A stretch of 45,544 bases of DNA from Verrucomicrobiota bacterium. Lineage in GTDB: Bacteria > Verrucomicrobiota > Verrucomicrobiia > Opitutales > UBA953. A model generated the notes under the pieces. It was given only the letters and a program-made list of their open reading frames with translations, searched no databases and had not been told where the DNA came from. The stretch covers positions 1 through 45,544 of the forward strand of contig JAURFU010000010.1 of assembly GCA_030834165.1 (NCBI GenBank), given 5' to 3'. Position numbers and translations under genes: made by a program. This document shows positions 27,021-45,177 of this stretch, one piece after another. Within the stretch, counting starts at the first letter, position 1. Each line of letters begins with the position of its first letter.

Positions 27021-27397
27021 GCCCGCGTTTCCTCGCCTGGACCTGGCTGCTGGCCGCCGTCGCCGCCTTCGCGATGGGGACCATCAACATCATGCGCCTG
27101 CGCGTCGAAGCCGACACCATCGGCGGCCGCATCCAGCGGCTCGAACGGGACATCGCCCTTTCCAAGAAGGAGCTCGACGCGGCCCGCCGCCACCGCGACC
27201 AGGCCGTCGACACCCTCCAGCTGCAGCAGCGCATCGGCGACGCCCTCAAGCCCCCGGTGCCCGAGCAGGTGGTCTGGATCCGCTTCACTCCTTCGGCCGT
27301 GTCCCCGGTCCCCCTCTTCTCCGCGAGTCCCCGGATGACGGCCCGCGAAATCGCCTTCCTCGGTTCGGGAGGGCAGGGAGGACCCGCCGCGCGATGA
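27017..27397 (+). CDS. ftsL: FtsL-like cell division protein
   Basis: 126 residues with one N-terminal membrane helix (about 5-22) followed by a periplasmic coiled coil (about 28-75, RLRVEADTIGGRIQRLERDI). This is the FtsL architecture, which pairs with FtsB/DivIC and FtsQ in the division complex. Sequence identity in FtsL is low in all bacteria, so the call rests on topology and on the slot between rsmH and ftsI. A loosely structured C-terminal tail of about 40 residues (FTPSAVSPVPLFSASPR) is longer than in most FtsL. ATGA overlaps at both ends. Confidence 0.75.
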   Translation: MSPRFLAWTWLLAAVAAFAMGTINIMRLRVEADTIGGRIQRLERDIALSKKELDAARRHRDQAVDTLQLQQRIGDALKPPVPEQVVWIRFTPSAVSPVPLFSASPRMTAREIAFLGSGGQGGPAAR

Positions 27398-29190: not shown

Positions 29191-30707
29191 CGCCTCCGCC
29201 CGCGATGATGCCCGCCTCGACGGAACGCCCGACCTTCAACGCCTTGCTCCAGGGCCTGCCCGTCCTCGGCCGCGCCGGCGACGGTTCGGTGCGCGTGACC
29301 ACGATCGTGACGGACAGCCGCCGCGTGATCCCGGGCGCGCTCTTCTTCGCCCTGCCGGGCCTCCGCGCCAACGGCCACGCCTTCCTCGACGACGTCATCG
29401 CCCGCGGCGCCGCCGCGATCGTCTCCGGCGAACCGGTCTCGGGCCTGCCCGCCGTCGCCGCCGCCCAGGTCGCCGACCCGCGCCGCATGCTCGCCGAGGT
29501 CGCCCGCCGTTTCTACGGCCACCCCGAGGAGTCGCTCCGCCTCGTCGGCGTGACGGGCACCAACGGCAAGACCACGATCTCGACGCTGCTGCGGCATCTC
29601 CTCCAGGCCGACGGTTCGCAGTGGGGCCTCGTCGGCACGGTCCGCTACCACCTCGGCCGCCGTTCGATCCCCTCCTATAAGACGACGCCGGATTCGGCCG
29701 ACCTAGCCGCCTTCTTCCGACAGATGGCCGACGCGGGCTGCGCGGGCGCCTGCCTCGAGGTCAGCTCCCACGCGCTCCATCAGGAGCGCGTCCACGGCTT
29801 CCGCTTCCACGTCGCGGCCTTCACGAACCTCACGCGCGACCATATCGACTACCACGGCGACCTCGCGACCTACCTCGACGCGAAGACCGCCCTCTTCGAC
29901 GGCCGCAACGGCCCGGTGCCCGACGTCAGCGTGATCAACGTAGACGACCCGGCCGGCCGCGTGCTCGCCGAGGCCTGCCGCCGCCGCGGCGCCGTGCTCA
30001 CCTTCGGGCTCTCGGCCGACGCCGACGTCCGCGCGACGGACCTCGCCCTCGACACCGGCGGCGCGATCTTCACCGTCCGCCACGCCGGCCGCTCCGCCGT
30101 CTTCAAGTCGGCCCTGCCGGGCGACTACAACGTCTCCAACGTCCTCTGCGCCCTCGCGATGGCCGCCGCGCTCGGCCGCGATCCCCTCGCCCTCGCGCCG
30201 GCGCTCGCCGCCTTCCCCGGCGTCCCGGGCCGCATGGAACGCGTCGAGGCCGGCCAGCCGTACCCGGTCTTCGTCGACTACGCGCACACCGACGACGCCC
30301 TCCGCAACGCGCTGCGCATGCTCCGCGACATCACCCCGGGACGCGTGCTCTGCGTCTTCGGCTGCGGCGGCGACCGCGACCGCGGCAAGCGCCCCGCGAT
30401 GACCAAGGCCGTCGCCGACCTCGCGCACCTCGCCTGGGCGACCGCCGACAACCCGCGCAAGGAGCCGGTCGAGCGCATCTTCGCCGACATGCGCGAGGGC
30501 CTCGGTCCGCTCCCGTCCGTCGAATTCGTCGCCGACCGGCGCGACGCCATCGGCCGCGCGCTGGCCGCGGCCAAGGCCGGCGACTGCGTCGTGATCGCGG
30601 GCAAGGGCCACGAGACGACCCAGGAATTCGCCGACACCGTGGTGCCGTTCGACGACCGTCAGGTCGTCCGCGAGATCCTCGAGCTCCGGAGGGGCGTCTC
30701 CGCATGA
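29187..30707 (+). CDS. murE: UDP-MurNAc-tripeptide ligase MurE (meso-diaminopimelate type)
   Basis: 506-residue ATP-dependent ligase adding the third amino acid of the peptidoglycan stem. The P-loop is VTGTNGKTT near residue 122; KTTPDS, LEVSSHAL, FTNLTRDHIDYHG and FVDYAHTDDAL follow. DNPR at 421-424 is the sequence motif that selects meso-diaminopimelate, so the wall should be DAP-type. The start overlaps the ftsI stop (ATGA); in-frame ATGs at 29205 and 29208 are alternatives. GKGHE near the end is typical. Confidence 0.95.
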   Translation: MTPPPAMMPASTERPTFNALLQGLPVLGRAGDGSVRVTTIVTDSRRVIPGALFFALPGLRANGHAFLDDVIARGAAAIVSGEPVSGLPAVAAAQVADPRRMLAEVARRFYGHPEESLRLVGVTGTNGKTTISTLLRHLLQADGSQWGLVGTVRYHLGRRSIPSYKTTPDSADLAAFFRQMADAGCAGACLEVSSHALHQERVHGFRFHVAAFTNLTRDHIDYHGDLATYLDAKTALFDGRNGPVPDVSVINVDDPAGRVLAEACRRRGAVLTFGLSADADVRATDLALDTGGAIFTVRHAGRSAVFKSALPGDYNVSNVLCALAMAAALGRDPLALAPALAAFPGVPGRMERVEAGQPYPVFVDYAHTDDALRNALRMLRDITPGRVLCVFGCGGDRDRGKRPAMTKAVADLAHLAWATADNPRKEPVERIFADMREGLGPLPSVEFVADRRDAIGRALAAAKAGDCVVIAGKGHETTQEFADTVVPFDDRQVVREILELRRGVSA

Positions 30708-32080
30708 GCCCCGCCTACGCCGCCGCCGACCTCGCCGCCTGGACCGACGGGCGCTGGACCGCCGCGCCCGCCGCGTCCGTCACGGGCTTCGGCATCGACA
30801 CGCGCGCCTTGCGCGCCGGCGAGGCCTTCGTCGCCGTGCGCACCGAGCGCCGCGACGGCCATGATTTCGTCGGCGCCGCCCGCGCGCAGGGCGCCGCCGG
30901 CGCCCTCGTCGGCCGCCCCGTCGACGACCCGCTGCCGCAGCTCGTGGTCGCCGATCCGCTCGTCGCGCTCCGCCGGATCGCGGCCCGCGCCCGCGCGGCC
31001 TTCCCCGGCGTCGTCATCGGCATCACCGGCAGCGTCGGCAAGACTTCGACGAAGGAGCTGCTCGCCGCCCTGCTCGGCGCCGACGCCTTCGCGACCGAGG
31101 CCAACCTCAACAACACCATCGGCGTGCCGCTCATGCTGCTGCGCGCCGACCCGGCCCGCCACCGTTACGCGGTGATCGAGGCGGGGATGAGCCTGCCCGG
31201 CGAACTCGCCGTCTCGGCCGAGGTGCTGCGTCCGGACCTCGCGGTCGTCACGGCCGTCGCTCCCGTCCATCTCGAAGGCGTCGGTTCGCTCGCCGGCATC
31301 GCCCGCGAGAAGGCCTCGCTCGTCGGCGCGCTCGCGCCCGGCGGCCGGGCCGTGCTGCCCGCCGCCTTGCTCGCCTGGCCTGACTTCGCCGCCGACGCCG
31401 GCCGTTGCGTCGCGGTGGCCTTCGGCGACGAGCCTCTGCCGGCGGCCGCGCCCGCCCGTCTCGTCCGCGCCTCCTTCGGCGTCGCCGCCGACGGCGGCCG
31501 CACGCTGGTCCTCGACGGCGAGACCTTCCCGCTCGGCCCGCTTTCCGACGGCCTCGCGCGCAATGCCGCCCTCGCCGTCGTCGCCGCCCGCCTCGCCGGC
31601 CGCTCCGCGCAGGAACTGGTCGCCGCGCTCGCGGCCTGGGCCCCGCCCGCCGGCCGCGGCAGCGTGCACGTCGACGGCCCGCGCACCTTCACGGTCGACT
31701 GCTACAACTCCAGCCCGGCCTCGTTGCTCGACGCCGTCCGCGCGTTCGACGCCCGCAGCCGGTCCTCGTCGGAACCCCGTCTTTTCGTGCTCGGCGGCAT
31801 GGCCGAGCTCGGCCCCACCTCCGCGCGACTCCACCGCGACTGCGGCGCGCAGCTGCCTCTCCGCTCCGGCGACCTCGTGGTCGTCTTCGGCGGCGAGGCG
31901 GCGGCGTTCCTGCAGGGAGTCGCGCACCCGGAGGCGGGTACCTTCGTCGCGGCCACGATCGAGGAGGCCGCCGCCCGCGTCGCCGCCCATCGCGGCCACG
32001 TCTTCCTCAAGGGCAGCCGCTCGTTCGCGCTCGAACGCTGCCTCCCGCCGTCCCTGCGCTCCGCGCTCTCCTTCCACTAG
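30704..32080 (+). CDS. murF: UDP-MurNAc-tripeptide D-Ala-D-Ala ligase MurF
   Basis: 458-residue ligase that finishes the UDP-MurNAc pentapeptide by adding D-alanyl-D-alanine. GFGIDTRALRAGEAFVA and DGHDFVGAARAQGA form the UDP-binding domain; VIGITGSVGKTSTKELL is the P-loop; NLNNTIGVPLMLL, EAGMSLPGELA and FTVDCYNSSPASLLDAV (Y-N-x-x-P) are family blocks; LGGMAELG and FLKGSRSFALE end it. ATGA overlap with murE, 1-bp gap to mraY. Confidence 0.95.
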   Translation: MSPAYAAADLAAWTDGRWTAAPAASVTGFGIDTRALRAGEAFVAVRTERRDGHDFVGAARAQGAAGALVGRPVDDPLPQLVVADPLVALRRIAARARAAFPGVVIGITGSVGKTSTKELLAALLGADAFATEANLNNTIGVPLMLLRADPARHRYAVIEAGMSLPGELAVSAEVLRPDLAVVTAVAPVHLEGVGSLAGIAREKASLVGALAPGGRAVLPAALLAWPDFAADAGRCVAVAFGDEPLPAAAPARLVRASFGVAADGGRTLVLDGETFPLGPLSDGLARNAALAVVAARLAGRSAQELVAALAAWAPPAGRGSVHVDGPRTFTVDCYNSSPASLLDAVRAFDARSRSSSEPRLFVLGGMAELGPTSARLHRDCGAQLPLRSGDLVVVFGGEAAAFLQGVAHPEAGTFVAATIEEAAARVAAHRGHVFLKGSRSFALERCLPPSLRSALSFH

Positions 32081-32081
32081 G

Positions 32082-33194
32082 ATGCTTTACCGTCTCAGCG
32101 AACTCGTCCACGCCTGGGGGCCTTTCCGCCTCTTCGACTACATCACCGTCCGCGCGATCCTCGCCGGCGTCACGGCCCTCCTGCTGGGCATGCTCTTCTC
32201 CGGCCGCTTCATCGGCGTGCTCGCGCGCCTGCGCCAGCCCGAGCGTTCGGCCCGGCTGATGGGCGACCTCGCCAAGGAAGGCGGCAAGGTCCCGACGATG
32301 GGCGGGCTGATCATCGCCGCCGCGGCGATCCCGGCCGTGCTGCTCTTCGCCCGGCCCGGCGTGCTCGTCTACGCCTCGCTCTGGTGCCTCGTCGGCATGG
32401 GCCTCGTCGGCCTCTACGACGACTGGCTCAAGGTCCGTCACGGCAGTTCCGACGGCATCTCCGCGCGCCTCAAACTGGCCGGCCAGGGCTTCGTGGCGCT
32501 CACCGCCTTCGGCCTCGTGCTGCTCGACCCCGCCTATCGCGAGGGACTCGCCGAGATCTGGCTGCCCGTCCTCAAGGAGCCGCTCTGGTCGGCTGGTTCG
32601 CTGGGCTGGCCCCTCGCCGCCTGCCTGGCCGTCGCGGGCGTGTTCTTCGTCCTCGTCTGCGTGGGCTGCTCGAACGCCGTGAACCTCACCGACGGCCTCG
32701 ACGGCCTCGCCATCGGCTGCGTGCTCATCACGACCGCGATCCTCGGCGTGGTCGCCTATCTCGCGGGACACGCGGAGTTCGCCTCCTACCTGCGCATCCG
32801 CCATGTCGCGGGCGCCGGGGAGCTGGCCGTCTTCTGCGCGGCCCTCTTCGGCGGCGGCCTCGTCTTCCTCTGGCACAACGCGGCGCCGGCGGAGATCTAC
32901 ATGGGCGACGTCGGCGCGCTCGGCCTCGGCGGCGCGCTCGGCGTGGTCGCCTGCCTCATGCGCCAGCCCTTCCTGCTCGCCATCGTCGGCGGCGTGTTCG
33001 TCGTCGAGGCCGTCTCGGTCATCCTGCAGGTCGCCTATTTCAAACGCACGGGCGGCAAGCGGCTGTTCCTGATGACGCCCATCCACCATCACTTCCAGAA
33101 GAAGGGCTGGCCTGCGACGAAGGTCGTGGCGCGCTTCTGGATCCTCTCGCTCCTCTGCGGCCTGCTCGGGCTGCTCTCCCTCAAGCTGCGATGA
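32082..33194 (+). CDS. mraY: Phospho-N-acetylmuramoyl-pentapeptide-transferase
   Basis: 370-residue polytopic membrane enzyme that makes lipid I from UDP-MurNAc-pentapeptide and undecaprenyl phosphate. GGKVPTMGGLII, GLYDDWLKV (the DD pair), SNAVNLTDGLDGLAIG, EIYMGDVGALGLGG and the histidine cluster LMTPIHHHFQKKGW are all conserved, with about ten hydrophobic helices. The ATG at 32082 follows the murF stop by one base. Normal length. Confidence 0.97.
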   Translation: MLYRLSELVHAWGPFRLFDYITVRAILAGVTALLLGMLFSGRFIGVLARLRQPERSARLMGDLAKEGGKVPTMGGLIIAAAAIPAVLLFARPGVLVYASLWCLVGMGLVGLYDDWLKVRHGSSDGISARLKLAGQGFVALTAFGLVLLDPAYREGLAEIWLPVLKEPLWSAGSLGWPLAACLAVAGVFFVLVCVGCSNAVNLTDGLDGLAIGCVLITTAILGVVAYLAGHAEFASYLRIRHVAGAGELAVFCAALFGGGLVFLWHNAAPAEIYMGDVGALGLGGALGVVACLMRQPFLLAIVGGVFVVEAVSVILQVAYFKRTGGKRLFLMTPIHHHFQKKGWPATKVVARFWILSLLCGLLGLLSLKLR

Positions 33195-34465
33195 GCGAAT
33201 TCCCCGACTCCCTCCGCCGCCGGCTCACCCGGCCCGCCGCCGTCTTCGGCGAGGGCGTGAGCGGACGTTCCGTCGCCGACTCGCTCGCCGCGGGCGGGTT
33301 CGCGTCCGTCATCTACGACGAGCGCGGGGAGAACCGCGTGTTCGGCGCCGAGGAGGCCGCCCGTCACGACCTGCTCGTCTACAGCCCCGGCTTCGCGCAG
33401 ACGCATCCGTGGCTGCTCGCCGCCCGCCGCGCGGGCCTGCACTGCCTCACCGAGCTCGATTTCGGCGCGCTGCTCTGGACCGGTCCGGCGGTGGCGGTGA
33501 CCGGCACCAACGGCAAGACCACCGTCACCGAGTTCCTCTCCTTCGCGTTCAAGCGCGCCGGTCTCGACGCCATCGCCTGCGGCAACGTCGGCCTGCCGCT
33601 CACGTCGCTGCACCGCACCGTCTCCAACGGGTCCTTCCTCGCGGTCGTCGAGGTGAGCTCCTTCCAGGCCGAGGACCTGCGTCATTTCAGCCCCGAAGCG
33701 GTGCTCTGGACGAACTTCGACGAGGACCATCTCGACCGTCACGGCGAGCTCGAGACCTATTTCCGCGCCAAGTTCCGGCTGCTCGAGCGCATGATGCCGG
33801 GCGGCATCCTCGTCGTCGGCGAATCGGTCGTCGCCGCCGCGCGCGCCTTCGGCATCGAGCTGCCGGACGACGTCCTCGTCGCCACGCGCGCCGAGGTCGC
33901 CGACGCCGTGCCCATGGGTTCGGTGTTCGACAGCTGGCCGCAGCGCGAGAACTGGTCCCTCATCGTGAAGTACTGGCAGGCCCGCGGCCTGCCGTTCCGC
34001 CAGCTCGAGGAGGCGGCCCGTCTCTTCCGCCTGCCGCCCCACCGGCTGCGCCGGGTCGCCGAAGCCAAGGGCGTCGAGTTCTGGAACGACTCCAAGGGCA
34101 CCAATTTCCACGCGGTCGAGGCCGCGCTCTCCCAGTTCGCCGTGCCGGTCCGATGGATCGGCGGCGGCAAGTGGAAGGGCGGGGACCTCGGCGCCTTCGT
34201 CCGCCGGATCGCCCCGCTCGTCGAGTCCGCCTGCCTGATCGGCGAGACCGCCGAGGAGCTGAAGCGCCACTTCGACGGCCTCGGCAAGAACGCCCGCTGC
34301 TATCCGTCGCTGCAGGACGCCGTCGTCGGCGCCGCCAAGGACGCCCACGGCCCCGCCGTGATCCTCCTCAGCCCGGGCTTCTCGAGCTTCGACCAGTTCC
34401 GCGGCTACGCCGAGCGCGGGCTCGTCTTCGAACGCGCGGCCACGGCCCTCGCCCAGCGTTCCTGA
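33191..34465 (+). CDS. murD: UDP-MurNAc-L-alanine D-glutamate ligase
   Basis: 424-residue ligase adding D-glutamate. VAVTGTNGKTTVTEF is the P-loop, ACGNVGLPLTSL and VVEVSSFQAEDL follow, then NFDEDHLDRHG with the metal-binding residues, NDSKGTNFHAVEAAL, and LLSPGFSSFDQF at the C terminus. It is about 15-25 residues shorter than average, mostly in the N-terminal Rossmann domain. Start overlaps mraY (ATGA). A 44-bp gap follows, the second-longest inside the cluster, before the LysM gene. Confidence 0.94.
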   Translation: MSEFPDSLRRRLTRPAAVFGEGVSGRSVADSLAAGGFASVIYDERGENRVFGAEEAARHDLLVYSPGFAQTHPWLLAARRAGLHCLTELDFGALLWTGPAVAVTGTNGKTTVTEFLSFAFKRAGLDAIACGNVGLPLTSLHRTVSNGSFLAVVEVSSFQAEDLRHFSPEAVLWTNFDEDHLDRHGELETYFRAKFRLLERMMPGGILVVGESVVAAARAFGIELPDDVLVATRAEVADAVPMGSVFDSWPQRENWSLIVKYWQARGLPFRQLEEAARLFRLPPHRLRRVAEAKGVEFWNDSKGTNFHAVEAALSQFAVPVRWIGGGKWKGGDLGAFVRRIAPLVESACLIGETAEELKRHFDGLGKNARCYPSLQDAVVGAAKDAHGPAVILLSPGFSSFDQFRGYAERGLVFERAATALAQRS

Positions 34466-34509
34466 TTTTTCCCAAACCAAACCCACCCACCCGAACCCAC
34501 CATACCACC

Positions 34510-35049
34510 ATGCGTCCCATCATCACCGTCACCGCCGTCGTGCTCGTGCACCTCTGCGTCATCGCCGTCCTCGTCGGCGTCAACGGCTGCCGCAGCACCA
34601 GCGGCTTCGAGCAGCCCGGCGACACCGTCGCGTTCTCCGGCGGCGTGCGACCCGTCGCGGCGGCCCCGTCGGCCGTCGTCCCGGTCCCGGCTCCGTCCGC
34701 CGTGTCCGTCGCCGACCGCCTGCCGACCCCGGCCCCGACCAAGCTCGCCGCGCGCGGCCCCGTCGGTCCCGGCGGCAAGCGCACCGTCCTCAAGGGCGAG
34801 ACGCTTTACAGCATCTCCCGCAACGAGAACACCACCATCGCCGCGCTCGCCAAGGCCAACGGCCTGCCGCTGAACGCCTTGCTCAAGGAAGGTCAGGTCC
34901 TGACGATCCCGGCGGCCGGCGCGTCCGCCGCCCCGAAGCCCGCCGCGCCCAAGGCCGCGCCCGCGCCGGCGCCGACCTTCGAGCCGCTCAAGCTCCTCCC
35001 GCTCACCGGCAGCGCGCCCGCCCCGGTCGCCGCGCCGGACAAGAAGTAA
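34510..35049 (+). CDS. LysM-domain lipoprotein within the dcw cluster
   Basis: 179 residues. An N-terminal hydrophobic segment ends in a possible lipobox (LVGVNGC, Cys27), so it is probably a lipoprotein or membrane-anchored. A Pro/Ala/Val-rich linker leads to one LysM domain at about residues 93-138 (KRTVLKGETLYSISRNENTT, LAKANGLPLNALLKEGQVLTIP), which binds peptidoglycan glycan strands. The tail is Ala/Pro-rich. The upstream 44 bp are almost free of G, with no Shine-Dalgarno site. Such a gene is not part of the canonical cluster; its place between murD and ftsW suggests a role at the division wall. Confidence 0.85.
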   Translation: MRPIITVTAVVLVHLCVIAVLVGVNGCRSTSGFEQPGDTVAFSGGVRPVAAAPSAVVPVPAPSAVSVADRLPTPAPTKLAARGPVGPGGKRTVLKGETLYSISRNENTTIAALAKANGLPLNALLKEGQVLTIPAAGASAAPKPAAPKAAPAPAPTFEPLKLLPLTGSAPAPVAAPDKK

Positions 35050-35070
35050 GCCCCTGCGCCGCGACACGCC

Positions 35071-36285
35071 ATGGTCATCAAGGTGAAGCAGGAGGAGCCG
35101 GGCGCCCTGGGTGGGTACGCCCTCGGCATCTTCGTGCTCGCCTTGGCCCTGGCGTTGTTCGGCCTGATGGTGCAGTACAGCGCGGGCATCTCGCTTTCGG
35201 CGAGCAACCGCACCGCCGCCTTCTACCGGCAGCTGGCCTACGTGCCGATCGCGTTCGTCGCCGGCTTCGCCTTCTACCGGCTCGACCTCGACAAGGCGCG
35301 CGCCTGGCGCGAGCGCATCCTGTGGGGCGCGTGCGGCCTGATGCTCCTCGCGCGCGTGCCCGGCATCGGCGTCTCGGTCAACGGCTCCTGGCGCTGGATC
35401 GACTTCGGCTTCTTCCGCCTGCAGGCGTCCGACCTCGGCAAGCTCGCCCTCGTCATCGTGCTGTCCGACCTCCTGGCGCGCATGCAGCGGCACACGTTGC
35501 CCAACAAGTTCCCGCTCTACCGCCTGCGGGATCGCCCGCCGTACATCTTCACGGACCGCGGCTGGGTCGATTTCCGCGAAGGCTTCGCCAAGCCCGTCGG
35601 CGTCCTGCTGCTGATCGCGGGCTTCATCGCGCTCGGTCCCGACCTCGGCACGATCCTCCTGTGCTGCGCCGTCGGCGGCACCATGATGCTCGTCTCCGGC
35701 GTCCGCTGGGCCTACGTCATCCCTTCGTTCCTGCTCGGGCTCGGCGGGTTCACGGTCCTCATCCTCAACTGGCCCAACCGCCTGCGCCGCTTCACCTCCT
35801 TCCTCGAGCCGTGGGAGAAGCGCGGCGACGAGGCCTATCAGCTCTTCGAAGGCATGGTGGCCTTCGGCGTCGGCGGCCTGACGGGGAAGGGCGCCGCGAA
35901 CGGCCTGCAGGGCCGCGCCTACCTGCCGGAGGCGCACACCGACTTCGTCTTCTCCGTCATCGGGGAGGAATACGGCCTCGTCGCCACGACGATCGTCGCG
36001 CTGGCCTACCTCGGCATCTTCTGGTGCGCCTACCGCGCGATGCGCCACACGGCCGACCTCTACCGCTTCAACGTCTGCCTCGGCGCCACGCTCTTCCTCG
36101 TCTTCCAGGCGCTCATCAACATGGGCGTCGTGACCGGCCTGCTGCCGACCAAGGGCATCTCGCTGCCGTTCATCAGCTACGGCGGCACGAACCTCGTCAT
36201 CATGGCGTGCATGGTGGGCCTCGTCCTCAACTGCGTCCGCGCCTCGGCCCAGCCGGCGTTCGTGCCGAAGGAGGCGCGCGCATGA
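35071..36285 (+). CDS. ftsW: Probable peptidoglycan glycosyltransferase FtsW
   Basis: 404-residue SEDS-family membrane protein that polymerises septal peptidoglycan with FtsI. Key blocks are VNGSWRWIDFGFFRLQASDLGKLA, LGPDLGTILL, LPEAHTDFVFSVIGEEYGL with the catalytic Asp region, and LPFISYGGTNL. About ten membrane helices. The cytoplasmic loop at about 145-175 (LPNKFPLYRLRDRPPYIF) is longer than in most FtsW. murG overlaps its stop. Confidence 0.94.
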   Translation: MVIKVKQEEPGALGGYALGIFVLALALALFGLMVQYSAGISLSASNRTAAFYRQLAYVPIAFVAGFAFYRLDLDKARAWRERILWGACGLMLLARVPGIGVSVNGSWRWIDFGFFRLQASDLGKLALVIVLSDLLARMQRHTLPNKFPLYRLRDRPPYIFTDRGWVDFREGFAKPVGVLLLIAGFIALGPDLGTILLCCAVGGTMMLVSGVRWAYVIPSFLLGLGGFTVLILNWPNRLRRFTSFLEPWEKRGDEAYQLFEGMVAFGVGGLTGKGAANGLQGRAYLPEAHTDFVFSVIGEEYGLVATTIVALAYLGIFWCAYRAMRHTADLYRFNVCLGATLFLVFQALINMGVVTGLLPTKGISLPFISYGGTNLVIMACMVGLVLNCVRASAQPAFVPKEARA

Positions 36286-37361
36286 GCCGCGTGCTGCTCG
36301 CCTGCGGCGGGACCGGCGGCCATCTCGCGCCCGGCATCGCCCTCGCCCAGCGGCTCGCCGAGGAAGGCCACGAATGCCGGCTGATCGTCAGCCGCAAGGC
36401 CGTCGACGCGCGCATGACCGCGCACTATCCGCGCCTGAGCTTCGTGCCGGGCAAGGGCCGCGGCTTCGGTCCGGGTCTCGTCGGCCGGCTGCTGTTCTTC
36501 CCCGCGCTCCTCGGCGCGCTCTGGTCTTCGTGGCGCCTGCTGCGCGCGTTCCGTCCGTCGGTGCTGGTCTGCTTCGGCGGCTTCATGAGCCTCGCGCCGG
36601 CGCTCGCCTGCCGCCTCGCCGGCGTGCCCGTGCTCGTGCACGAGGCGAACCGCCGTCCCGGCAAGGCCGTGCGCCTCATCGCGCGCTTCGCCACGTCGGT
36701 CCACCTGCCCGCCGGCGTCCGCCTGCCGGGCGTCGCCCCCGCGCGCCAGCATGATTCCGGCTATCCCGTCCGCGCGGAGATCCGGCCCGAAGCCCGCGAC
36801 GCCGCGCGCCGCGCGCTCGGCCTGCCGCCCGCGGGCCGCCTCGTGCTCGTCGTCGGCGGCAGCCAGGGCGCGGCCCGGCTCAACCGCTGGGTCGAGGACA
36901 ACCTCGAGGAGTTCGCCGTCCGCGGCGTGCACGTGCTCTGCCTCACCGGTCCCGGCGGCCGCGAGGACGAGGTCCGTGCGGAGCAGTCGGTGGTGAGGTT
37001 CCTGCCGTTCTGCCACCAGATGGCCGCGGCCTATTCCGCCGCCGACCTCGCCGTCGCGCGCGCCGGCGCGGGCACGCTCGCCGAGCTCGCCACCTGCCGG
37101 ACGCCGGCGGTGCTCATCCCGCTGCCGACCGCGGCGGACGACCATCAGACCGCGAACGCCCGCGAAAGCGAACGCGCCGGCGCCGCGGTCCTCCTGCCGG
37201 AAGCGGAGCTCACGCGCCTCGCCGGCGTCGTCTTCGACCGCCTTCATGACAACGCGGCCCTGGCCGCCATGCGCGACGCGCTCGCGCTGGCCGACGCGGG
37301 CAACCGTTGGGACGCCCTCGCCACGGAGACCGTCGCCCTCGCGGCCGGCGCCGCCGCATGA
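36282..37361 (+). CDS. murG: UDP-GlcNAc:undecaprenyl-PP-MurNAc-pentapeptide GlcNAc transferase
   Basis: 359-residue GT28 enzyme that converts lipid I to lipid II at the inner membrane face. ACGGTGGHLAPGIALAQ is the N-terminal G-loop; VCFGGFMSLAPALA and VLVHEANRRPGKA match the acceptor side; VVGGSQGAARLN, ARAGAGTLAELA and PLPTAADDHQTANA form the UDP-GlcNAc site. HEANRRPG differs from the common HEQN-x-x-PG at the third residue. ATGA overlaps at both ends. Confidence 0.94.
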   Translation: MSRVLLACGGTGGHLAPGIALAQRLAEEGHECRLIVSRKAVDARMTAHYPRLSFVPGKGRGFGPGLVGRLLFFPALLGALWSSWRLLRAFRPSVLVCFGGFMSLAPALACRLAGVPVLVHEANRRPGKAVRLIARFATSVHLPAGVRLPGVAPARQHDSGYPVRAEIRPEARDAARRALGLPPAGRLVLVVGGSQGAARLNRWVEDNLEEFAVRGVHVLCLTGPGGREDEVRAEQSVVRFLPFCHQMAAAYSAADLAVARAGAGTLAELATCRTPAVLIPLPTAADDHQTANARESERAGAAVLLPEAELTRLAGVVFDRLHDNAALAAMRDALALADAGNRWDALATETVALAAGAAA

Positions 37362-39634
37362 GCGGTTCCGCCTGGATGCTCGGGGCGTGCGGCATGGGCG
37401 TCGGCCCGCTCGCGCTCTACCTGAAAGGCGACGGCTGGGAGGTCTCCGGCTGGGATGATGCGACCGGCAGTCCGATGGAGCTCCAGCTCGCGAACGGCGA
37501 AGTGCCGCTCCTGCGCGATCCGTGGGCCGCGGGCCGTCGGCCCACCGTGGTCGGCCGCTCCAGCGCGGTGAAGCCGGGTCATCCCGCGCTCACGCTCGCC
37601 GAAGGCCATGGCGTGCGCACCTTGCGCCGCGGCGAGCTCCTCGCCGAGGCGGTCGCCGGCCGCCGCTTCGTCGCCGTCTGCGGCAGCCACGGCAAGACCA
37701 CCACCTGCGGCCTGCTCGTCGCCGCGCTGGCCAGCGCCGGCGCCGATTTCGGCTATGTGCTCGGCGGCCTGTTCCGCGATCCCACGTTCCCGCCCGCGCG
37801 CGCCTCCGCCGCTTCGCCGTGGGTCGTCGCGGAGGTCGACGAGAGCGACGGCACGATCGGCGCCTTCTCGCCCGACGTCACCGTCGCGGTCAACCTCGAC
37901 TGGGACCACCCCGACTACTATCGCGACGAAGCCGCGCTCGAGGCCGTCTTCCGCGCGCTCTTCGAACGCACGCGCTCCGCGGTCGTGATCCCCGCCGGCA
38001 ACAAGCGTCTCGAACGTCTCGTCGCCGGTCTCAAGGTGCCCGTCATCCGCGTGGGGGAAGAGGGCGATTACTCCTGCCGGCTCGTCCAAGGCGGACATGC
38101 CTCGTCGGTCGTCGCGCTTGGCGGCCGTTTCCGGGCGGGCCAGTTCAACCTCCCGGTCGCGGGCACCTTCAACCGTTCGAACGCCTCGCTGGCGCTCGCG
38201 GTCACGCACTTCATCACCGGCGGCCTGGTCGCCGAGCCGCTCGCGCGCTGGCGCGGGATCCGCCGCCGTCAGGACGTCCTCTTCGAACGCACCGGCCTGC
38301 GCGTGCTCGCCGACTACGCGCACCATCCGACCGAGATCGCCGCGCTCCTGCAGTGGGTGCGCGAGACGCACGCCGGCCGCCTGGTCGTCGTCTTCCAGCC
38401 CCACCGCCACACCCGCACGCGCCAGTATGCGCGCGAGTTCCGCGACGCGCTCGCCGTGGCCGACCACGCGCTCGTGCTGCCGGTCTACTCCGCCGGCGAG
38501 GCCGCCGTCGAGGGCGGGGGCTCCGACGCGATCGTCGCCGGCTCCGCGCACCGCCTCGTCGATGACCGCCGCGGCTTGCCCGCCTTGCTCGACGCGCTCG
38601 CCGAGGGCGCCGACATGGTGGTCGCTTTCGTGGGCGCGGGTGACATCGAACGCGACGCCGAGGCCTACGCAAAGGTGCTCCGCCGCCGCGGCGAAGGCGT
38701 GCTCACGGCCGACCTGCCCGACCTCGTCGCCGGCCGTCTCTCCGCCGGGTGCGTCCTGCGCGCCAACGAACCGCTCGCCCGGCGCACCACGCTGGGGCTC
38801 GGCGGCGCGGCCCGTTGGTATGCCGAGCCGGCTTCCGTCGACGACCTCGTCACGCTGCTGCGCGCGGCGGCCGAACTCGACCTCCGCTGGTTCGTGCTCG
38901 GCCGCGGTTCCAACCTGCTCGTGCCCGACGAAGGTTACGACGGCCTGATCCTGCATCTCGACGCCGCCCGATGGGGCGCCGTGACCGACCTCGGCGAAGG
39001 CCGTTTCCGCGTCGGCGGCGGCACCCGGCTCAAGGAGCTGTGCGGCGTCGCCGCGCGCGCCGGCCGCGCGGGCTTCGAATTCCTCGAAGGCATCCCCGGC
39101 ACCGTCGGCGGTTCGCTCCGCATGAACGCCGGCGCGATGGGCGGCTGGATCTTCGACGTCGTCGAGTCCATCGAATGGCTGACGCCCCAGGGCCGCGTGC
39201 GGGCCGCCCGCCGCGACTGCTTCGACGCGCTCTACCGCGACTGCCCGCAGCTGCACGGCGCGGTCGTGCTCTCCGCGGTGCTGCGTTCCCCCGCCGCGGA
39301 GGACCCCGCCGTCATCCGCGGCCGCATGGACGAGATGGCCGCCCGCCGCCGCGCCTCTCAGCCCCGCGAAGCCAGCGCCGGCTGCGTCTTCCGCAATCCC
39401 GAAGGCGACAAGGCCGGCCGGCTCATCGACGCCAGCGGGCTCAAGGGCCGCGCGGTCGGCCCCGTCTCCGTCTCGCCCACGCACGCCAACTTCCTCGTCA
39501 ACGCCGGGGACGCCAAGGCCGCGGACTTCCTCGCGCTCATGCGCGAGGTGCGCGCCGAGGTGAAGGCCCGTCAGGGCGTCGAACTCCAGCCCGAGATCGT
39601 GGCCCTCGGCCGCGAATGGAAGGAACTCCTATGA
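37358..39634 (+). CDS. murC/murB: MurC-MurB fusion: UDP-MurNAc L-alanine ligase and UDP-MurNAc dehydrogenase
   Basis: 758 residues in one uninterrupted frame. Residues 1 to about 450 are MurC: the P-loop is CGSHGKTTTCGLL near 107-119, then VDESDG, NLDWDHPDYY, TFNRSNASLALA, DYAHHPTEIAAL and QPHRHTRT. Residues about 455-758 are MurB: TTLGLGGAARWYAEP, LGRGSNLLVPDEGYDG, FEFLEGIPGTVGGSLRMNAGA, SAGCVFRNPEGD and HANFLVNAG. The catalytic position usually held by Ser is Cys676, a variant known in some MurB. The two enzymes act on successive intermediates (MurB makes UDP-MurNAc, MurC adds L-Ala), so fusion may channel them. Confidence 0.94.
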   Translation: MSGSAWMLGACGMGVGPLALYLKGDGWEVSGWDDATGSPMELQLANGEVPLLRDPWAAGRRPTVVGRSSAVKPGHPALTLAEGHGVRTLRRGELLAEAVAGRRFVAVCGSHGKTTTCGLLVAALASAGADFGYVLGGLFRDPTFPPARASAASPWVVAEVDESDGTIGAFSPDVTVAVNLDWDHPDYYRDEAALEAVFRALFERTRSAVVIPAGNKRLERLVAGLKVPVIRVGEEGDYSCRLVQGGHASSVVALGGRFRAGQFNLPVAGTFNRSNASLALAVTHFITGGLVAEPLARWRGIRRRQDVLFERTGLRVLADYAHHPTEIAALLQWVRETHAGRLVVVFQPHRHTRTRQYAREFRDALAVADHALVLPVYSAGEAAVEGGGSDAIVAGSAHRLVDDRRGLPALLDALAEGADMVVAFVGAGDIERDAEAYAKVLRRRGEGVLTADLPDLVAGRLSAGCVLRANEPLARRTTLGLGGAARWYAEPASVDDLVTLLRAAAELDLRWFVLGRGSNLLVPDEGYDGLILHLDAARWGAVTDLGEGRFRVGGGTRLKELCGVAARAGRAGFEFLEGIPGTVGGSLRMNAGAMGGWIFDVVESIEWLTPQGRVRAARRDCFDALYRDCPQLHGAVVLSAVLRSPAAEDPAVIRGRMDEMAARRRASQPREASAGCVFRNPEGDKAGRLIDASGLKGRAVGPVSVSPTHANFLVNAGDAKAADFLALMREVRAEVKARQGVELQPEIVALGREWKELL

Positions 39635-40554
39635 GCGCCGAACCCGAGATCGTCGTCCTCTGCGGAGGCCTGTCTTCCGAACGCGAGGTCTCGCTCCGCT
39701 CCGGCCAGGCCGTGGCCGGAGTCCTGCCCGGCTCCCGGCTCGTCGAACTGACGACCGACGCTTTGCCCGCCTGGCTCGATCCGGCGCGCCACGTCGTCTT
39801 CCCCGTGCTGCACGGCGGCTGGGGCGAGGACGGCCGCGCCCAGGCCGAGATGGAAGCCCGGGGGATCGCCTTCGCCGGCTGCTCTTCCGCCGCCAACCGT
39901 CTCTGCATGGACAAGGTCGCGACCAAGCAGGCCATGCGCGCCGCCGGCGTCCCGGCGATCCCCGAGGTCGCCTTCGCGGGCGCCGCCAAGCCGACGGCCG
40001 CCGCGCTCGTCGCCGCCTTGGGCGAACAACTGGTGATCAAGCCCTCCGACCAGGGCAGCAGCGTCGGGCTCTACATGCTGGAAGGGGAGGCCGCCGTCGC
40101 CGAGGCCCTGGCCGCGATCCCCGCCTCCGGCCAGTGGATGGCCGAGCGTCGTCTACGCGGCCGCGAGCTGTCGATCGGCCTGCTGGACGGATGTCCCATG
40201 GGCCTCGTCGAGATCGTCCCGCTCACCGGGGTGTATGACTACAGGACCAAATACACCAAGGGCGCCTCGGAGTATCGCTTCCCCGCGCCGATCCCCGCCG
40301 AACTCACCGCCGCCATCGGCGAGGCCGCCGCGCGCCTCTTCGCCGCGTGCGGCTGCCGCGACTTCGCCCGGGCCGATGTCTTCCTTGAGCCCGACGGCCG
40401 CTTCTATTTCCTCGAGATCAACACGATGCCCGGCATGACCGCCACCAGCCTGATGCCCAAGAGCGCTTCCTGCGTCGGGCTCGATTTCCCCGCGCTCGTG
40501 CGCCGCATGGCCGCCCCGGCCCTCGCGCGCGTCGCCCGCCCCGACCGCCGCTGA
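39631..40554 (+). CDS. ddl: D-alanine-D-alanine ligase
   Basis: 307-residue ATP-grasp enzyme making the D-Ala-D-Ala used by MurF. VLCGGLSSEREVSLRSG, VFPVLHGGWGEDG, MDKVATKQAMRAAGVPAIP, VIKPSDQGSSVGL, EIVPLTGVYDYRTKYTKG and FYFLEINTMPGMTATSLMPK are canonical. YDYRTKYT is the omega-loop region of D-Ala-D-Ala-forming enzymes rather than the lactate type. Start overlaps the murB end by 4 bp; ftsQ follows after 2 bp. Confidence 0.96.
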   Translation: MSAEPEIVVLCGGLSSEREVSLRSGQAVAGVLPGSRLVELTTDALPAWLDPARHVVFPVLHGGWGEDGRAQAEMEARGIAFAGCSSAANRLCMDKVATKQAMRAAGVPAIPEVAFAGAAKPTAAALVAALGEQLVIKPSDQGSSVGLYMLEGEAAVAEALAAIPASGQWMAERRLRGRELSIGLLDGCPMGLVEIVPLTGVYDYRTKYTKGASEYRFPAPIPAELTAAIGEAAARLFAACGCRDFARADVFLEPDGRFYFLEINTMPGMTATSLMPKSASCVGLDFPALVRRMAAPALARVARPDRR

Positions 40555-40556
40555 CC

Positions 40557-41543
40557 ATGGGCCTCTTCGATTCCTTGTTCGGCCGCCGTCGCGCCGCCTT
40601 CCGCGGCCAGGCCGACCGCGACTGGCGCGCCCTCGTGCCGCAGGACGTCCGGCGCGTCCCCTCCGGCGAGCTCGGCCGCAAGCGCATCGTGCGTTCGAAG
40701 CTGCCGACCGTGGCCGCCGCCCTTTTCTTCGGCGTGCTCGTCGCCTTGCTCTGGTGGGCCGTGGACGAGTCGACCGCTGCGGCCCCCGCCGCGAAGCTGC
40801 GCTTCCAGACGGACGGCTTCCTTTCCGCCGACTTCGTGAAGAAGGTCGTGGCCGCCGGTCCCGACGGCTTCGCGCGCGATGTCCGCTCGATCAAGGCGGA
40901 CCTCGAGGCGGACAACCAGGTCCTGGCGGCGGACGTCCGCCGGCGCGGCGACGGCACCTTGGAGATCGGCCTCCGCGAACGGCTCGCCGTCGCCAAGATC
41001 GCCAGCCAGTCCGCCAAGGGCGCGCCGATCCAGGTGCGCCTCGTGGCCGCGGACGGCCAGACCTTCGCCGGCGTGGGCTACCCCGAGCAGACGATCCGCA
41101 TCCTGCCGGAGATCCAGGATTACCGCGCGACCGGCGCCGACGACAAGCTGCTCATCGAAGGCATCGAGATCGCGGCGCCCTTCCTGCTGACGGTCCGCAC
41201 GACCTATCCGCACCTCTACAAGCAGTGGTCGGCGGTCTCGCTGCGCGACTGTTTCGGCGCGCAGGAGGATTCCCCCGGATCGAACCTCCGCGTCACCGTC
41301 CGTCCCGGCACCCAGCCGCTGGACCGGCCGGCCCTCGTCGAGATCGTCTTCTCCACCGCCAACTGGCGCAACGAGCTCACGCTCCTCGGCCGCATCAACG
41401 TCGACGAGCTGCTGCGCCGGCCCGGCGCGACCGCGTCGGCCTACGTGCTCAAGATGTCGATCCAGAACCGCACCAACGCCGCCTCGCCCGTCCCCGAACC
41501 CCGCCTCGTCCCCGTCAACGCCGCCCCCGCCCCTCTCCGATGA
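40557..41543 (+). CDS. ftsQ: Divergent FtsQ-type cell division protein
   Basis: 328 residues with a basic cytoplasmic N terminus, one membrane helix at about 48-68 (LPTVAAALFFGVLVALLWWAV) and a periplasmic domain. The stretch RGDGTLEIGLRERLAVAKIAS resembles the FtsQ beta-domain core (V-x-E-R-x-P-V-A), but a clear POTRA domain is not obvious. The identity rests on topology and on the ddl-ftsQ-ftsA position. In the division complex FtsQ bridges FtsL/FtsB and early proteins. Longer than Escherichia coli FtsQ (276). Stop overlaps ftsA. Confidence 0.75.
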   Translation: MGLFDSLFGRRRAAFRGQADRDWRALVPQDVRRVPSGELGRKRIVRSKLPTVAAALFFGVLVALLWWAVDESTAAAPAAKLRFQTDGFLSADFVKKVVAAGPDGFARDVRSIKADLEADNQVLAADVRRRGDGTLEIGLRERLAVAKIASQSAKGAPIQVRLVAADGQTFAGVGYPEQTIRILPEIQDYRATGADDKLLIEGIEIAAPFLLTVRTTYPHLYKQWSAVSLRDCFGAQEDSPGSNLRVTVRPGTQPLDRPALVEIVFSTANWRNELTLLGRINVDELLRRPGATASAYVLKMSIQNRTNAASPVPEPRLVPVNAAPAPLR

Positions 41544-42775
41544 CTTCCAAGCCCCTCCCGTCCCTCATCGCCGTCATCGACATCGGCACGCACAAGACGG
41601 CCAGCCTCCTCGGCCAGGTCATCGACGGCAAGGCCCGCATGCTCAGCTTCAGCGAGCGCCGCACCGACGGCGTCGTGAAGGGCACCGTCACCGACCTCGA
41701 GAAGCTCACGCAGTGCGTGCATGAGGTCGTCAACGACATCGAGCGCGGTTCCGGCCGCGCCGTCGAGCAGGTCTATCTCTCGCTCTCCGGACCGGCCGCC
41801 GAAGGCGAGCGCGTGAAGGGTTTCATCGCCGTGCCCGCGCACGACGGCAAGGTCACCGCCAAGGACGTCGCCGACGCGGTCGCCTCGGCCAAGCGCCTCG
41901 AGCCGCCGGCCGGCCGGAGCACGCTGCTCTACATGCGCCAGCCGACGCTGCTGGACGGCAAGCCGGTGGGCAACCCGGTGGGCATGGCCGGCAAGCGGCT
42001 CGAGGTGAGCTTCTGGCGCGTCACCATGGAGGAAGGCAACATGCGCATGCGCGTGGGCATGATCAACGGCCTGAGCATCCGCGTGCGCGACTTCATCCTG
42101 GCCTCGCACGCCGCCGCCTGCGCGACGGCGAGCGACGCCGACAAGCAGGGCGGGGTGCTCGTGATCGACATGGGCGCCGGCACGACGGACTGGATCCTGT
42201 ACTACAAGGAGCACATCCTCTGCGCGGGTTCGATCCCGGTGGGCGGCGAACACCTCACCAACGACCTCAGCGTGGCGCTGCGCATCAGCCGCGAGACGGC
42301 CGAGGACCTTAAGCAGCGCTTCGGCTCGGCGCTCCACCGCGAGACGGACGTCAACCAGACCATCTGGAAGGACGGCGACAAGGGCGTGGGCGACCAGCAG
42401 TTCAACCGCGGCACGATCACGCAGGTGCTCTCGCTGCGCTACCAGGAGACGATCGAGTTCGTGCGGAAGGACGTCCTCCGCCGCCTGGAGCAGATCTTCC
42501 CGGGCCACGCCGTGCGGCTCGACCAGAACATGCTCCCTTCGGGCGTGATCCTCACCGGCGGCTCGGCTAACCTCGCCGACGCGGCCGAAGCTGTCCAGCT
42601 GGTGACCGGCGTGCCGGCCCGCGTGGGCGTGCCGGACTTCGAGAACGAATCCCTGCGCAAGCCCGAGTATGCGGGCATCGTCGGCCTCATGACCGCGGCC
42701 CTCGCCGACGCCCCGCCGCCGGTCGTCCGGCCGCGCGGTTTCCTCGCCCAGCTGAAGGCGCTCTTCCGCTTCTGA
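41540..42775 (+). CDS. ftsA: Cell division protein FtsA
   Basis: 411-residue actin-like ATPase that tethers FtsZ to the membrane. IAVIDIGTHKTASLLG is the phosphate-1 block (His replaces the usual Ser), LVIDMGAGTTDWILY the phosphate-2 block, GSIPVGGEHLTNDLS and ILTGGSANLADAAEAVQ the adenosine region. The 1C domain (VEQVYLSLSG) is present. The C terminus GFLAQLKALFRF is an amphipathic membrane-targeting helix. A 1-bp gap leads to ftsZ, so stoichiometric production is likely. Confidence 0.93.
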   Translation: MTSKPLPSLIAVIDIGTHKTASLLGQVIDGKARMLSFSERRTDGVVKGTVTDLEKLTQCVHEVVNDIERGSGRAVEQVYLSLSGPAAEGERVKGFIAVPAHDGKVTAKDVADAVASAKRLEPPAGRSTLLYMRQPTLLDGKPVGNPVGMAGKRLEVSFWRVTMEEGNMRMRVGMINGLSIRVRDFILASHAAACATASDADKQGGVLVIDMGAGTTDWILYYKEHILCAGSIPVGGEHLTNDLSVALRISRETAEDLKQRFGSALHRETDVNQTIWKDGDKGVGDQQFNRGTITQVLSLRYQETIEFVRKDVLRRLEQIFPGHAVRLDQNMLPSGVILTGGSANLADAAEAVQLVTGVPARVGVPDFENESLRKPEYAGIVGLMTAALADAPPPVVRPRGFLAQLKALFRF

Positions 42776-42776
42776 G

Positions 42777-43907
42777 ATGGCCACGCCCGCTTCCATCCTC
42801 CTGGTCGGCCTCGGCGGCGCGGGCTGCGCCATGGTCACGCGGCTCGCGGCCCAGCTCCCCGCGGAGGTCGCCGTCGCGCTCCTCGACACCGACGCGCGGG
42901 CCCTCGCGTCCGGCGGTCCCGGGACGAACCTGCAGCTCGGCCGGGCGCAGACGCGCGGGATGGGCACGGGGGGCGAAGCCGCGCTCGGCCTGGCTTCCGC
43001 CGAGGCGGAGGAGCCGTCCCTGCGCCGTCTCTTCACCGGCGTGCCGGTCGTCGTGCTCGTCGCCGGACTCGGCGGCGGCACGGGCAGCGGCGCCGCCGCG
43101 ACGGTCGCGGGTTGCGCGGCCGAGGCCGGCGCCACGGTGCTCGCCTTCGCCACGATGCCGTTCTCGCACGAAGGCGAACGGCGGATGCGTCAGGCCAACG
43201 AGGCCTCGGTCAAGCTCGGCCAGAAGGCCCACGGCCTCGTCGTCGTGCACAACGACCTGCTCCTCCAGCAGGTGGCGCCCGACGCCCCGTTGTCGGAATC
43301 TTTCGCCGCCGCCGACGCCTGGGTGGGCGGCGCGCTCCGCGGTCTCGCCGGCGCCTTCGCGCCGGGCGCGCTCGTCCCCGCCGATCCCGCCGCGCTGCGT
43401 TCGCTCCTCGCCACGCCCGGCTCGCCGACGCTCTTCGCCTTCGGCGTGGGCGCGGGCGAAGGCGCCGCGCTGAAGGCCGCGCGCGCGGCCGTCGACTGCC
43501 CGCTCGCCCACGCGCCCGGCGCGGTCGCCAAGGTGGCCTCGCTCTTCGTCCATGTCGCCGGCGGTCCGGCCATGACGTCCACCGAGGCCTTCGAGGCGGT
43601 CGGCGCGGTGCGCGCGCGCTTCGGCGGCGAGACTTCCACGATCCTCTGCGCGCGCCTCGAGCCCGCGCTCGGCGACCGCGTCGAAGTCTCGGTGCTCGGC
43701 GCTTCCCTTCCTCCGCCCAAGCCGCCCGCCAAGTCCAAGAAAGGCGCCAAGGGCGAGGACCCCGCGCAGCCGATCTTCGAGTTCGCGACGGAGGAATCGA
43801 TGCGTCGGGGTCTGTTCGGCGGCACGCCGATGACGTTCATCGAAGGACAGGACGTCGACGTGCCCGCCTACATCCGCAAGGCCGTGCGGCTGCCGCCGTC
43901 GCCCTGA
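42777..43907 (+). CDS. ftsZ: Divergent FtsZ-like tubulin-family protein
   Basis: 376 residues in the ftsZ slot. FtsZ features kept: N-terminal LLVGLGGAGCAMV, LLDTDARAL, the tubulin signature GLGGGTGSGAA (97-107), PFSHEGERRMRQA (the Glu and Arg that contact the nucleotide) and HND (158-160). A variable Lys/Pro linker leads to the C-terminal peptide VDVPAYIRKAV, which matches the FtsA-binding tail DIPAFLRK. Missing: an ungapped comparison with the remembered Escherichia coli T7 loop (NVDFADV) gives PADPAAL, so Asn207 is Pro201, Asp209 is kept as Asp203 and catalytic Asp212 is Ala206. GTP hydrolysis between subunits is therefore predicted to be weak or lost. The T1 loop also lacks GGGGGN. Confidence 0.85.
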   Translation: MATPASILLVGLGGAGCAMVTRLAAQLPAEVAVALLDTDARALASGGPGTNLQLGRAQTRGMGTGGEAALGLASAEAEEPSLRRLFTGVPVVVLVAGLGGGTGSGAAATVAGCAAEAGATVLAFATMPFSHEGERRMRQANEASVKLGQKAHGLVVVHNDLLLQQVAPDAPLSESFAAADAWVGGALRGLAGAFAPGALVPADPAALRSLLATPGSPTLFAFGVGAGEGAALKAARAAVDCPLAHAPGAVAKVASLFVHVAGGPAMTSTEAFEAVGAVRARFGGETSTILCARLEPALGDRVEVSVLGASLPPPKPPAKSKKGAKGEDPAQPIFEFATEESMRRGLFGGTPMTFIEGQDVDVPAYIRKAVRLPPSP

Positions 43908-43921
43908 AGTTCGCTTCCCGG

Positions 43922-43949
43922 TTGCGCCCCGCCCGGGTCCGCCTACGTT
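43922..43949 (+). promoter_or_regulatory. Candidate promoter for sufS
   Basis: TTGCGC (43922-43927), a 16-bp spacer and TACGTT (43944-43949), only 7 bp before the ATG at 43957. It resembles the TTGC/16/TAxxTT pattern seen before nuoB and the FecR-domain gene. Weak evidence. Confidence 0.25.
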
Positions 43950-43956
43950 CGGCCCC

Positions 43957-45177
43957 ATGCCCGCGTTCGACGTCGCCGCCTGCCGCAAGGACTTCCCGAT
44001 CCTGGGGCGTGCCGTGCGCGGCCGTCCGTTGGCCTACCTCGACAACGCGGCGACTTCGCAGAAGCCGTCCGTCGTGATCAGGGCGCTCGAGCGTTATTAT
44101 TCCGAGCAGAACGCCAACGTCCACCGCGGCGTCCATCTCCTCAGCGAAGAAGCCACCGCCGCCTACGAGGCCGCGCGCGGCTCCGTCGCGAAGTTCCTCG
44201 GCCTCAAGGACGCCCGCGGCTGCGTGTTCGTCCGCGGCGCCACCGAAGGCATCAACCTCGTCGCGGAGTGCTGGGGCCGGGCCAACCTCAAGGCCGGGGA
44301 CGAGATCCTGCTCACCCATCTCGAGCACCATGCCAACATCGTGCCCTGGCAGGCGATCGCCGAGCGCACGGGCGCCAAGGTCGTCGTCACGCCCGTCACC
44401 CCGCGCGGCGAGGTCGACCTCGTTGCCTTCAAGGGCCTGCTTTCCGCCCGGACCAAGCTCGTCGCCTTCGCGCACGTCTCCAACGCCCTCGGCACCGTCA
44501 ACCCGGCCGTCGAGATGACGCGCCTCGCCAAGGCTGCCGGCGCGGTGGTGCTCATCGACGGCTGCCAGGCCGCCGCGCACTTCCGGGTCGATGTCCCGGC
44601 GCTCGGTTGCGACTTCTACGCTTTCTCCGGCCACAAGACCTTCGGGCCGACCGGCATCGGCGTCCTGTGGGGACGTCCCGAGCTGCTCGACGCCATGCCG
44701 CCTTATCAGTTCGGCGGCGACATGATCAGCAAGGTCGACTTCGCCGGCACCACCTATCGCGCTGCCCCCGAGCGTTTCGAGGCCGGCACGCCCGATATCT
44801 CCGGGGCCATCGCCCTCGGCGTGGCCTTGGAATACGTCATGCCCATCCAGGCGGAGGCGCATGCGCACGAGCAGGCCCTGCTGGCCGCGGCCACCGAGCG
44901 ACTCAAGGCCATCAAGGGACTCACCCTCGTCGGCGAAGCGCCCGAGAAGGTCGCCGTCATCTCCTTCAACCTCGAAGGCGGCCACCCGCACGACGTCGGT
45001 ACCTTGCTCGACGCCGACGGCATCGCCATCCGCACCGGTCACCACTGCTGCATGCCGTTGATGAAGCATTACGGACTCAGCGGCACCGCCCGCGCCTCGT
45101 TCGCGTTCTACAACACCTTCGAGGAAGTCGACCGCCTGGCGGTCTCGCTCGAGAAGGCGCGGAAGATGATGGCCTAA
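43957..45177 (+). CDS. sufS: Cysteine desulfurase, SufS/CsdA type (class V aminotransferase)
   Basis: 406-residue PLP enzyme that takes sulfur from cysteine as a persulfide for Fe-S cluster assembly. YLDNAATSQKP, NVHRGVHLLSEEAT and LTHLEHHANIVPWQ are type-II desulfurase blocks; the PLP lysine is Lys227 in FSGHKTFGPTG; the persulfide cysteine is Cys364 in RTGHHCCMPL, followed by a second Cys. The loop is short, as in SufS rather than IscS/NifS. No sufBCD or sufE lies next to it in the window. It ends 4 bp into a convergent gene. Confidence 0.93.
   Translation: MPAFDVAACRKDFPILGRAVRGRPLAYLDNAATSQKPSVVIRALERYYSEQNANVHRGVHLLSEEATAAYEAARGSVAKFLGLKDARGCVFVRGATEGINLVAECWGRANLKAGDEILLTHLEHHANIVPWQAIAERTGAKVVVTPVTPRGEVDLVAFKGLLSARTKLVAFAHVSNALGTVNPAVEMTRLAKAAGAVVLIDGCQAAAHFRVDVPALGCDFYAFSGHKTFGPTGIGVLWGRPELLDAMPPYQFGGDMISKVDFAGTTYRAAPERFEAGTPDISGAIALGVALEYVMPIQAEAHAHEQALLAAATERLKAIKGLTLVGEAPEKVAVISFNLEGGHPHDVGTLLDADGIAIRTGHHCCMPLMKHYGLSGTARASFAFYNTFEEVDRLAVSLEKARKMMA

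Follow-up and report, generated by a model that had tools for sequence, protein, structure and literature searches.

The GTP hydrolysis and treadmilling of FtsZ are held to drive the dynamics of the Z-ring, and the aspartates of its T7 loop are treated as near-universal, a view that rests here on the FtsZs of E. coli, Klebsiella, Mycobacterium and a member of the Selenomonadaceae aligned by us, and on PMC8936486. The only FtsZ found in the genome of a lake bacterium of the Verrucomicrobiota is without one of these two catalytic aspartates. What kind of FtsZ is this, and is the change peculiar to it? The gene lies in a contig stretch of 45,544 nucleotides (JAURFU010000010.1), which was analysed as a whole and is referred to below as the window.

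The ftsZ gene of the window and its T7 loop

The ftsZ gene (42777-43907, forward strand) is an uninterrupted open reading frame encoding 376 amino acids. It is the last gene of the dcw cluster and, as the original prediction had it, is coupled to ftsA (41567-42775, forward strand): a single base separates the ftsA stop codon (42773-42775) from the ATG of ftsZ, and the ftsA product matches TIGR01174 with 235.5 bits, above the cut-off. The start of ftsA is approximate, its domain beginning at about position 41567. The preceding gene (40557-41543, forward strand) was assigned as ftsQ by position only, being without a Pfam or NCBIfam match. The remaining dcw genes, rsmH/mraW, ftsI, murE, murF, mraY, murD, a gene for a LysM protein, ftsW, murG, a murC-murB fusion and ddl, occupy positions 26103-40554 on the same strand. 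The murC-murB fusion gene (37307-39634) is as described for V. spinosum, and the LysM-domain protein (33409-35049), encoded between murD and ftsW, gave weak DipM/ActS-like matches. A 433-codon open frame runs antisense to ftsZ (42687-43988, reverse strand); like the many other overlapping open reading frames of the window, it probably arises from the G+C-rich codon usage.

The protein contains the Pfam domains PF00091 (Tubulin, 98.4 bits) and PF12327 (FtsZ_C, 33.4 bits), both above the gathering cut-offs. Its score for PF13809 (Tubulin_2) is 20.5 bits, below the cut-off of 27, which places it outside this family of FtsZ-like proteins. The match to TIGR00065 (ftsZ; 1e-52, 179.6 bits) lies below the curated equivalog cut-off of 295.2. 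This cut-off does not define function in the phylum, because the essential FtsZ of V. spinosum also falls below it (271.5). An AlphaFold2 model, built with 22 sequences and of middling confidence (mean pLDDT 67.7), has the FtsZ fold. Its best Foldseek matches are filament structures of S. aureus FtsZ (TM 0.83), and the 50 matches listed are all FtsZ structures (TM-target 0.76-0.85). By its domains, fold, position in the dcw cluster and FtsA-binding peptide, the protein is a member of the orthologous FtsZ family, even though it misses the TIGR00065 cut-off.

Alignment showed that much of the nucleotide-binding machinery is unchanged. The T4 tubulin signature GLGGGTGSG (43065-43091) is unaltered, the T5/H5 segment PFSHEGERR (43158-43184) keeps Glu132 and Arg136, which correspond to E. 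coli E138 and the "arginine finger" R142 (PMC8936486), and Asn159 (E. coli N165) is also retained. A short Lys/Pro-rich linker of about 46 residues (43710-43847), predicted to be disordered (pLDDT below 50 from residue 311 of the model), leads to the C-terminal FtsA-binding peptide QDVDVPAYIRKA (43848-43883), of which QDVDVPAYIRK aligns with E. coli YLDIPAFLRK. The retention of GGGTGSG, of the Glu/Arg pair and of the VDVPAYIRK peptide had been predicted correctly. The glycine-rich T1 loop had been described as altered (GGAGCA); the real change in T1 (GLGGAGCA, 42807-42830; GVGGGGGN in E. coli) is Asn24 to Ala, and GGAG itself is ordinary in the phylum. The T2 loop is altered too, with Asp in place of Asn43.

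The T7 synergy loop, GALVPADPAA, is encoded at 43365-43394. From the F182 helix through T7 the alignment with E. coli FtsZ is ungapped and places LVPADPAAL of the window opposite LMNVDFADV, so that the canonical N-x-D-x-x-D of hydrolysing FtsZs is absent. Asn207 is replaced by Pro201 (codon ccc, 43377-43379), Asp209 is kept as Asp203 (gat, 43383-43385) and Asp212 is replaced by Ala206 (gcg, 43392-43394), exactly as first read from the DNA. A misalignment hiding an aspartate at 209 or 212 was rejected: phmmer comparisons with the Klebsiella and Mycobacterium FtsZs, two independent MAFFT runs and a small L-INS-i alignment with the E. coli protein agree without a gap.

Distribution of the T7 aspartates in the genus, order and phylum

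All 42 sequences of the window's genus have Asp209 and are without Asp212 (Ala in 40 of them), and Asn207 is replaced in each by Ala, Pro or Ser. The nucleotide-contact residues D45, G107, E138, R142 and N165 are kept across the genus in the alignment. A sequencing or assembly error was rejected, the T7 change being common to all congeners; moreover, the codon of Ala206 varies synonymously among the species (GCG, GCT, GCC), which argues against both chance and sequencing error. The reading frames are intact, at 65-93% identity. The pN/pS values of 0.25 for the core, 0.24 for T7 and 0.07 for the C-terminal peptide, the gene's most conserved stretch, reveal purifying selection, which rules out a pseudogene.

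Outside the family, 28 of the 29 other Opitutales sequences sampled are also without Asp212, mostly with Thr instead. The change predicted from the window is thus real but not peculiar to its gene. Asn207 is kept in 25 of these 29 sequences and an acid at 209 in every one. In cultured Opitutales of the Opitutus/Coraliomargarita type, the loop reads LINLDFATL. Since Asp212 is absent from nearly the whole order, its loss dates to the base of the Opitutales or earlier, and that of Asn207 followed in the window's family or genus. One sister genus (g25) has a similar loop, GAL(L/M)PLDPGAL. In another (g24), R142 and D45 are both replaced by Ser and N207 by Arg, T4 reads GRGTGSG and T7 reads RMRVDLAAF; the g24 proteins (L092-L098, L103, L104) have a one-residue insertion before T7 and are encoded by single-copy genes in genomes that are 95-98% complete. 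Judged by these residues, the case for a non-hydrolysing FtsZ is stronger for g24 than for the window gene.

The comparison was then extended to 197 FtsZs of the Verrucomicrobiota, representing about 80 families; this sample is heavily weighted to the window's genus, and the Methylacidiphilum-like T7 in it could not be aligned with confidence. The full motif with Asn207, Asp209 and Asp212 is present in only 22. Of the 197, 109 have an acid at 209 alone and 52 at 212 alone; 31 have one at each position, and 5, including one masked sequence, have neither. The mirror image of the window's change, with Asp209 replaced by Gly and Asp212 kept, occurs in Prosthecobacter-like genomes (identified as such by the presence of btubA/B), in Akkermansia-like genomes and their kin, and in Verrucomicrobium. 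The FtsZs of the Methylacidiphilum-like family f28 (L193, L195-L197, L199, L207, L208), single copy in closed genomes, are the most eroded of the phylum, having no recognisable T7 and an altered T4 (GGAMGSA, AGATGAT); a 2016 review of the PVC bacteria already flags the FtsZ of M. infernorum as uncertain.

On a maximum-likelihood tree of 154 FtsZs, computed with the T7 columns left out, at least 14 changes are needed at 209, at least 13 at 212 and at least 18 at 207. A test of dependent evolution showed that the losses at 209 and 212 are not independent (LR 28.2, 4 parameters, p = 1.1e-5): the fitted rate of Asp209 loss is 0.61 in the presence of Asp212 and zero in its absence, and that of Asp212 loss is 0.35 with and 0.08 without Asp209. 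Nine other residue pairs put through the same test gave LR values of 0.8-7.5, none significant. The result held on a FastTree topology (p = 2e-5) and without the Verrucomicrobiales-like clade (p = 4e-5); tests of this type are sensitive to a few deep events, and p became 0.016 without the Opitutales and 0.029 without both large clades. When both losses were simulated independently, the excess had a p of 0.09; this simulation was not conditioned on the number of losses and was too noisy for that reason, so the likelihood test was chosen. Compensation for the loss of Asp212 was also considered, and neither N43 (Asn43 to Asp), Q47 (Gln47 to Arg), R142 nor N207 co-varied significantly with it on the tree.

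That either aspartate can go, but rarely both, is well supported, though not proven. Across nearly the whole phylum, the sequences indicate that almost every lineage has lost one catalytic aspartate and almost none has lost both. This mutual exclusion is the main new result. The window protein is a variant of FtsZ and not a new kind of system. A search of the open-access literature, to which it was confined, found no mention of T7 erosion in verrucomicrobial FtsZ, and the loop is not mentioned in Yee et al. 2007 (PMC1845146) or in the 2025 TraDIS paper (PMC12283558). The sole FtsZs of the phylum have shed one of the two aspartates on at least a dozen occasions and retained the other. They amount to a mutagenesis of the active site carried out by nature, and the pattern shows which catalytic parts division can spare.

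Possible roles of the window protein

We favour as probable that the window FtsZ is the working, single-copy Z-ring protein of its genus, a one-acid and probably slow GTPase with an adapted interface. It would bind GTP and polymerise head to tail, and FtsA would tether the polymer. The pared-down T7 loop would offer the neighbouring subunit one acid, Asp203, together with Arg136, and with one acid instead of two, hydrolysis and turnover would probably be slow compared with those of E. coli FtsZ. The window protein would then exemplify a relaxation found across the phylum, where one or other catalytic aspartate, though seldom the two together, has been given up.

The adapted interface matters because of what is known of S. 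aureus FtsZ. There, D210 (209 in E. coli) swings in to place the water that attacks, with D213 (212) and R143 (142) forming the environment, and N208 (207) makes a water-mediated contact to phosphate; each of the single mutations N208L, D210N and D213N abolishes assembly (PMC8936486). The window's genus is without the equivalents of two of these three residues, N208 and D213, and, measured against these mutants, its protein would be expected to polymerise only if the remainder of the interface had adapted.

A possible but less likely reading is that the FtsZ of the genus binds GTP and polymerises without useful hydrolysis, forming a non-treadmilling scaffold, with constriction and turnover supplied by the synthesis of septal wall, by FtsA or by disassembly factors. 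Neither Asn207 nor Asp212 is present, alanine stands at the position of the S. aureus bond-environment residue D213, and the window loop resembles that of beta-tubulin. The further eroded protein of g24, with its changes at R142 and D45, is still encoded by a single-copy gene, and E. coli FtsZ(D212G) is reported to work in division despite deficient hydrolysis (PMC4383033). However, every sequence of the genus has Asp209, Arg142 is retained, and were hydrolysis unnecessary, frequent loss of both acids would be expected, which is not seen. The invariance of Asp209 and the phylum-wide loss of single aspartates suggest that hydrolysis has been weakened or re-engineered rather than abolished. The original prediction of a Z-ring protein without normal hydrolysis fits these data, but to call its T7 loop broken is too strong. 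Should the genus and its sister genera, with their full dcw set, have a non-hydrolysing FtsZ after all, for which we see perhaps a modest chance, a Z-ring without hydrolysis-driven treadmilling would support division in nature.

Other explanations fare worse. An accessory GTPase activator acting in trans, or FtsA, might supply the missing catalytic group throughout the phylum, which would account both for the dispensability of each acid taken singly and for the FtsA-binding peptide being conserved above all other parts; we regard this as improbable, as the GTP is buried at the interface between FtsZ subunits and leaves little room for a residue from outside (PMC8936486). It is more doubtful still that ftsZ is decaying in cells that divide independently of it. 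FtsZ has been lost entirely in the sister phyla Planctomycetota and Chlamydiota (PMC5147048), and the Methylacidiphilum-like proteins look strongly eroded, but frames that stay intact at this level of identity, with the low pN/pS values given above, speak against a decaying gene, and V. spinosum cannot do without its own T7-eroded FtsZ (PMC12283558).

The least probable reading, and one largely refuted, makes the window FtsZ half of a two-tubulin system whose partner has an intact T7, as also raised in the original prediction. There are precedents in chloroplast FtsZ1/FtsZ2 and in BtubA/BtubB, and two genomes from the class to which the window belongs, G201 and G205, carry btubA/B. Nevertheless, the window's genome (81% complete) contains a single PF00091 protein and, with two exceptions, so does each of the 64 family genomes that gave a match, including 99%-complete genomes of the window's genus. 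The two exceptions have two copies each, 86-88% similar and on separate contigs, and look like mixed bins. PF13809 was not detected in any of 79 family genomes. The family thus yielded no further tubulin homologue, and the idea of a partner fails. Elsewhere in the phylum, a Prosthecobacter-like genome (G205:C9) has two btubA/B pairs about 220 kb apart, plus an FtsZ without Asp209, and in eight genomes of other classes (G232, G236, G240, G242, G259, G260, G262 and G280) FtsZ is accompanied by another protein with a weak tubulin domain, about 364-398 amino acids long.

Comparison with known FtsZs and tubulins

A close parallel to our favoured reading, a working one-acid FtsZ, is found in V. spinosum. 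We located its ftsZ gene in an 8.2-Mb single-contig genome by means of the published sequencing primers; the protein matches the reported 673 amino acids, is the sole FtsZ of the genome and has the T7 loop IVRMGIADL, with Arg at 207 and Gly at 209. V. spinosum divides by binary fission and has ordinary peptidoglycan, and its ftsZ is essential by TraDIS (PMC12283558), so that division does run on an FtsZ with an eroded T7 loop; Yee et al. 2007 called this protein "canonical" (PMC1845146). It belongs to the same phylum as the window FtsZ and, like it, is a sole FtsZ with one T7 acid left and a C-terminal peptide. In contrast to the window protein, it has kept Asp212 and lost Asp209, and it has a long C-terminal extension; having lost the other acid, it supports the phenomenon and not the exact variant of the window. 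How much hydrolysis division needs is directly testable in cultured members of the phylum such as V. spinosum, for which genetic tools exist, Akkermansia and Opitutus.

With the canonical FtsZs of E. coli, S. aureus and M. tuberculosis, the window protein shares the Tubulin and FtsZ_C domains, T4, the Glu/Arg pair of T5, the FtsA peptide, the dcw position and the fold. It differs in a T7 reduced to (P/A)-x-D-x-x-A in its genus, in the changes of N24 and N43 and in a low TIGR00065 score. In beta-tubulin, the T7 loop has the equivalent of Asp209, the catalytic acid (a glutamate) matching Asp212 is absent, and the GTP that it caps is not hydrolysed. Beta-tubulin works as a heterodimer with alpha-tubulin, whereas no second subunit was found in the window's genome.

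In E. coli FtsZ(D212A), GTP hydrolysis is greatly slowed, yet the protein still forms rings (PMC4383033). This allele and D212G resemble the window FtsZ in being without Asp212 and with Asp209; unlike it, they keep Asn207, and they were made in the laboratory, whereas the window FtsZ is the natural and only FtsZ of its lineage. The FtsZ of Nitrosopumilus is, like that of the window, a natural protein without the T7 motif. However, its GTP-binding motif is also absent, it does not polymerise and Cdv proteins divide the cell (PMC3684127), whereas the window FtsZ retains its GTP-binding loops and its FtsA-binding peptide.
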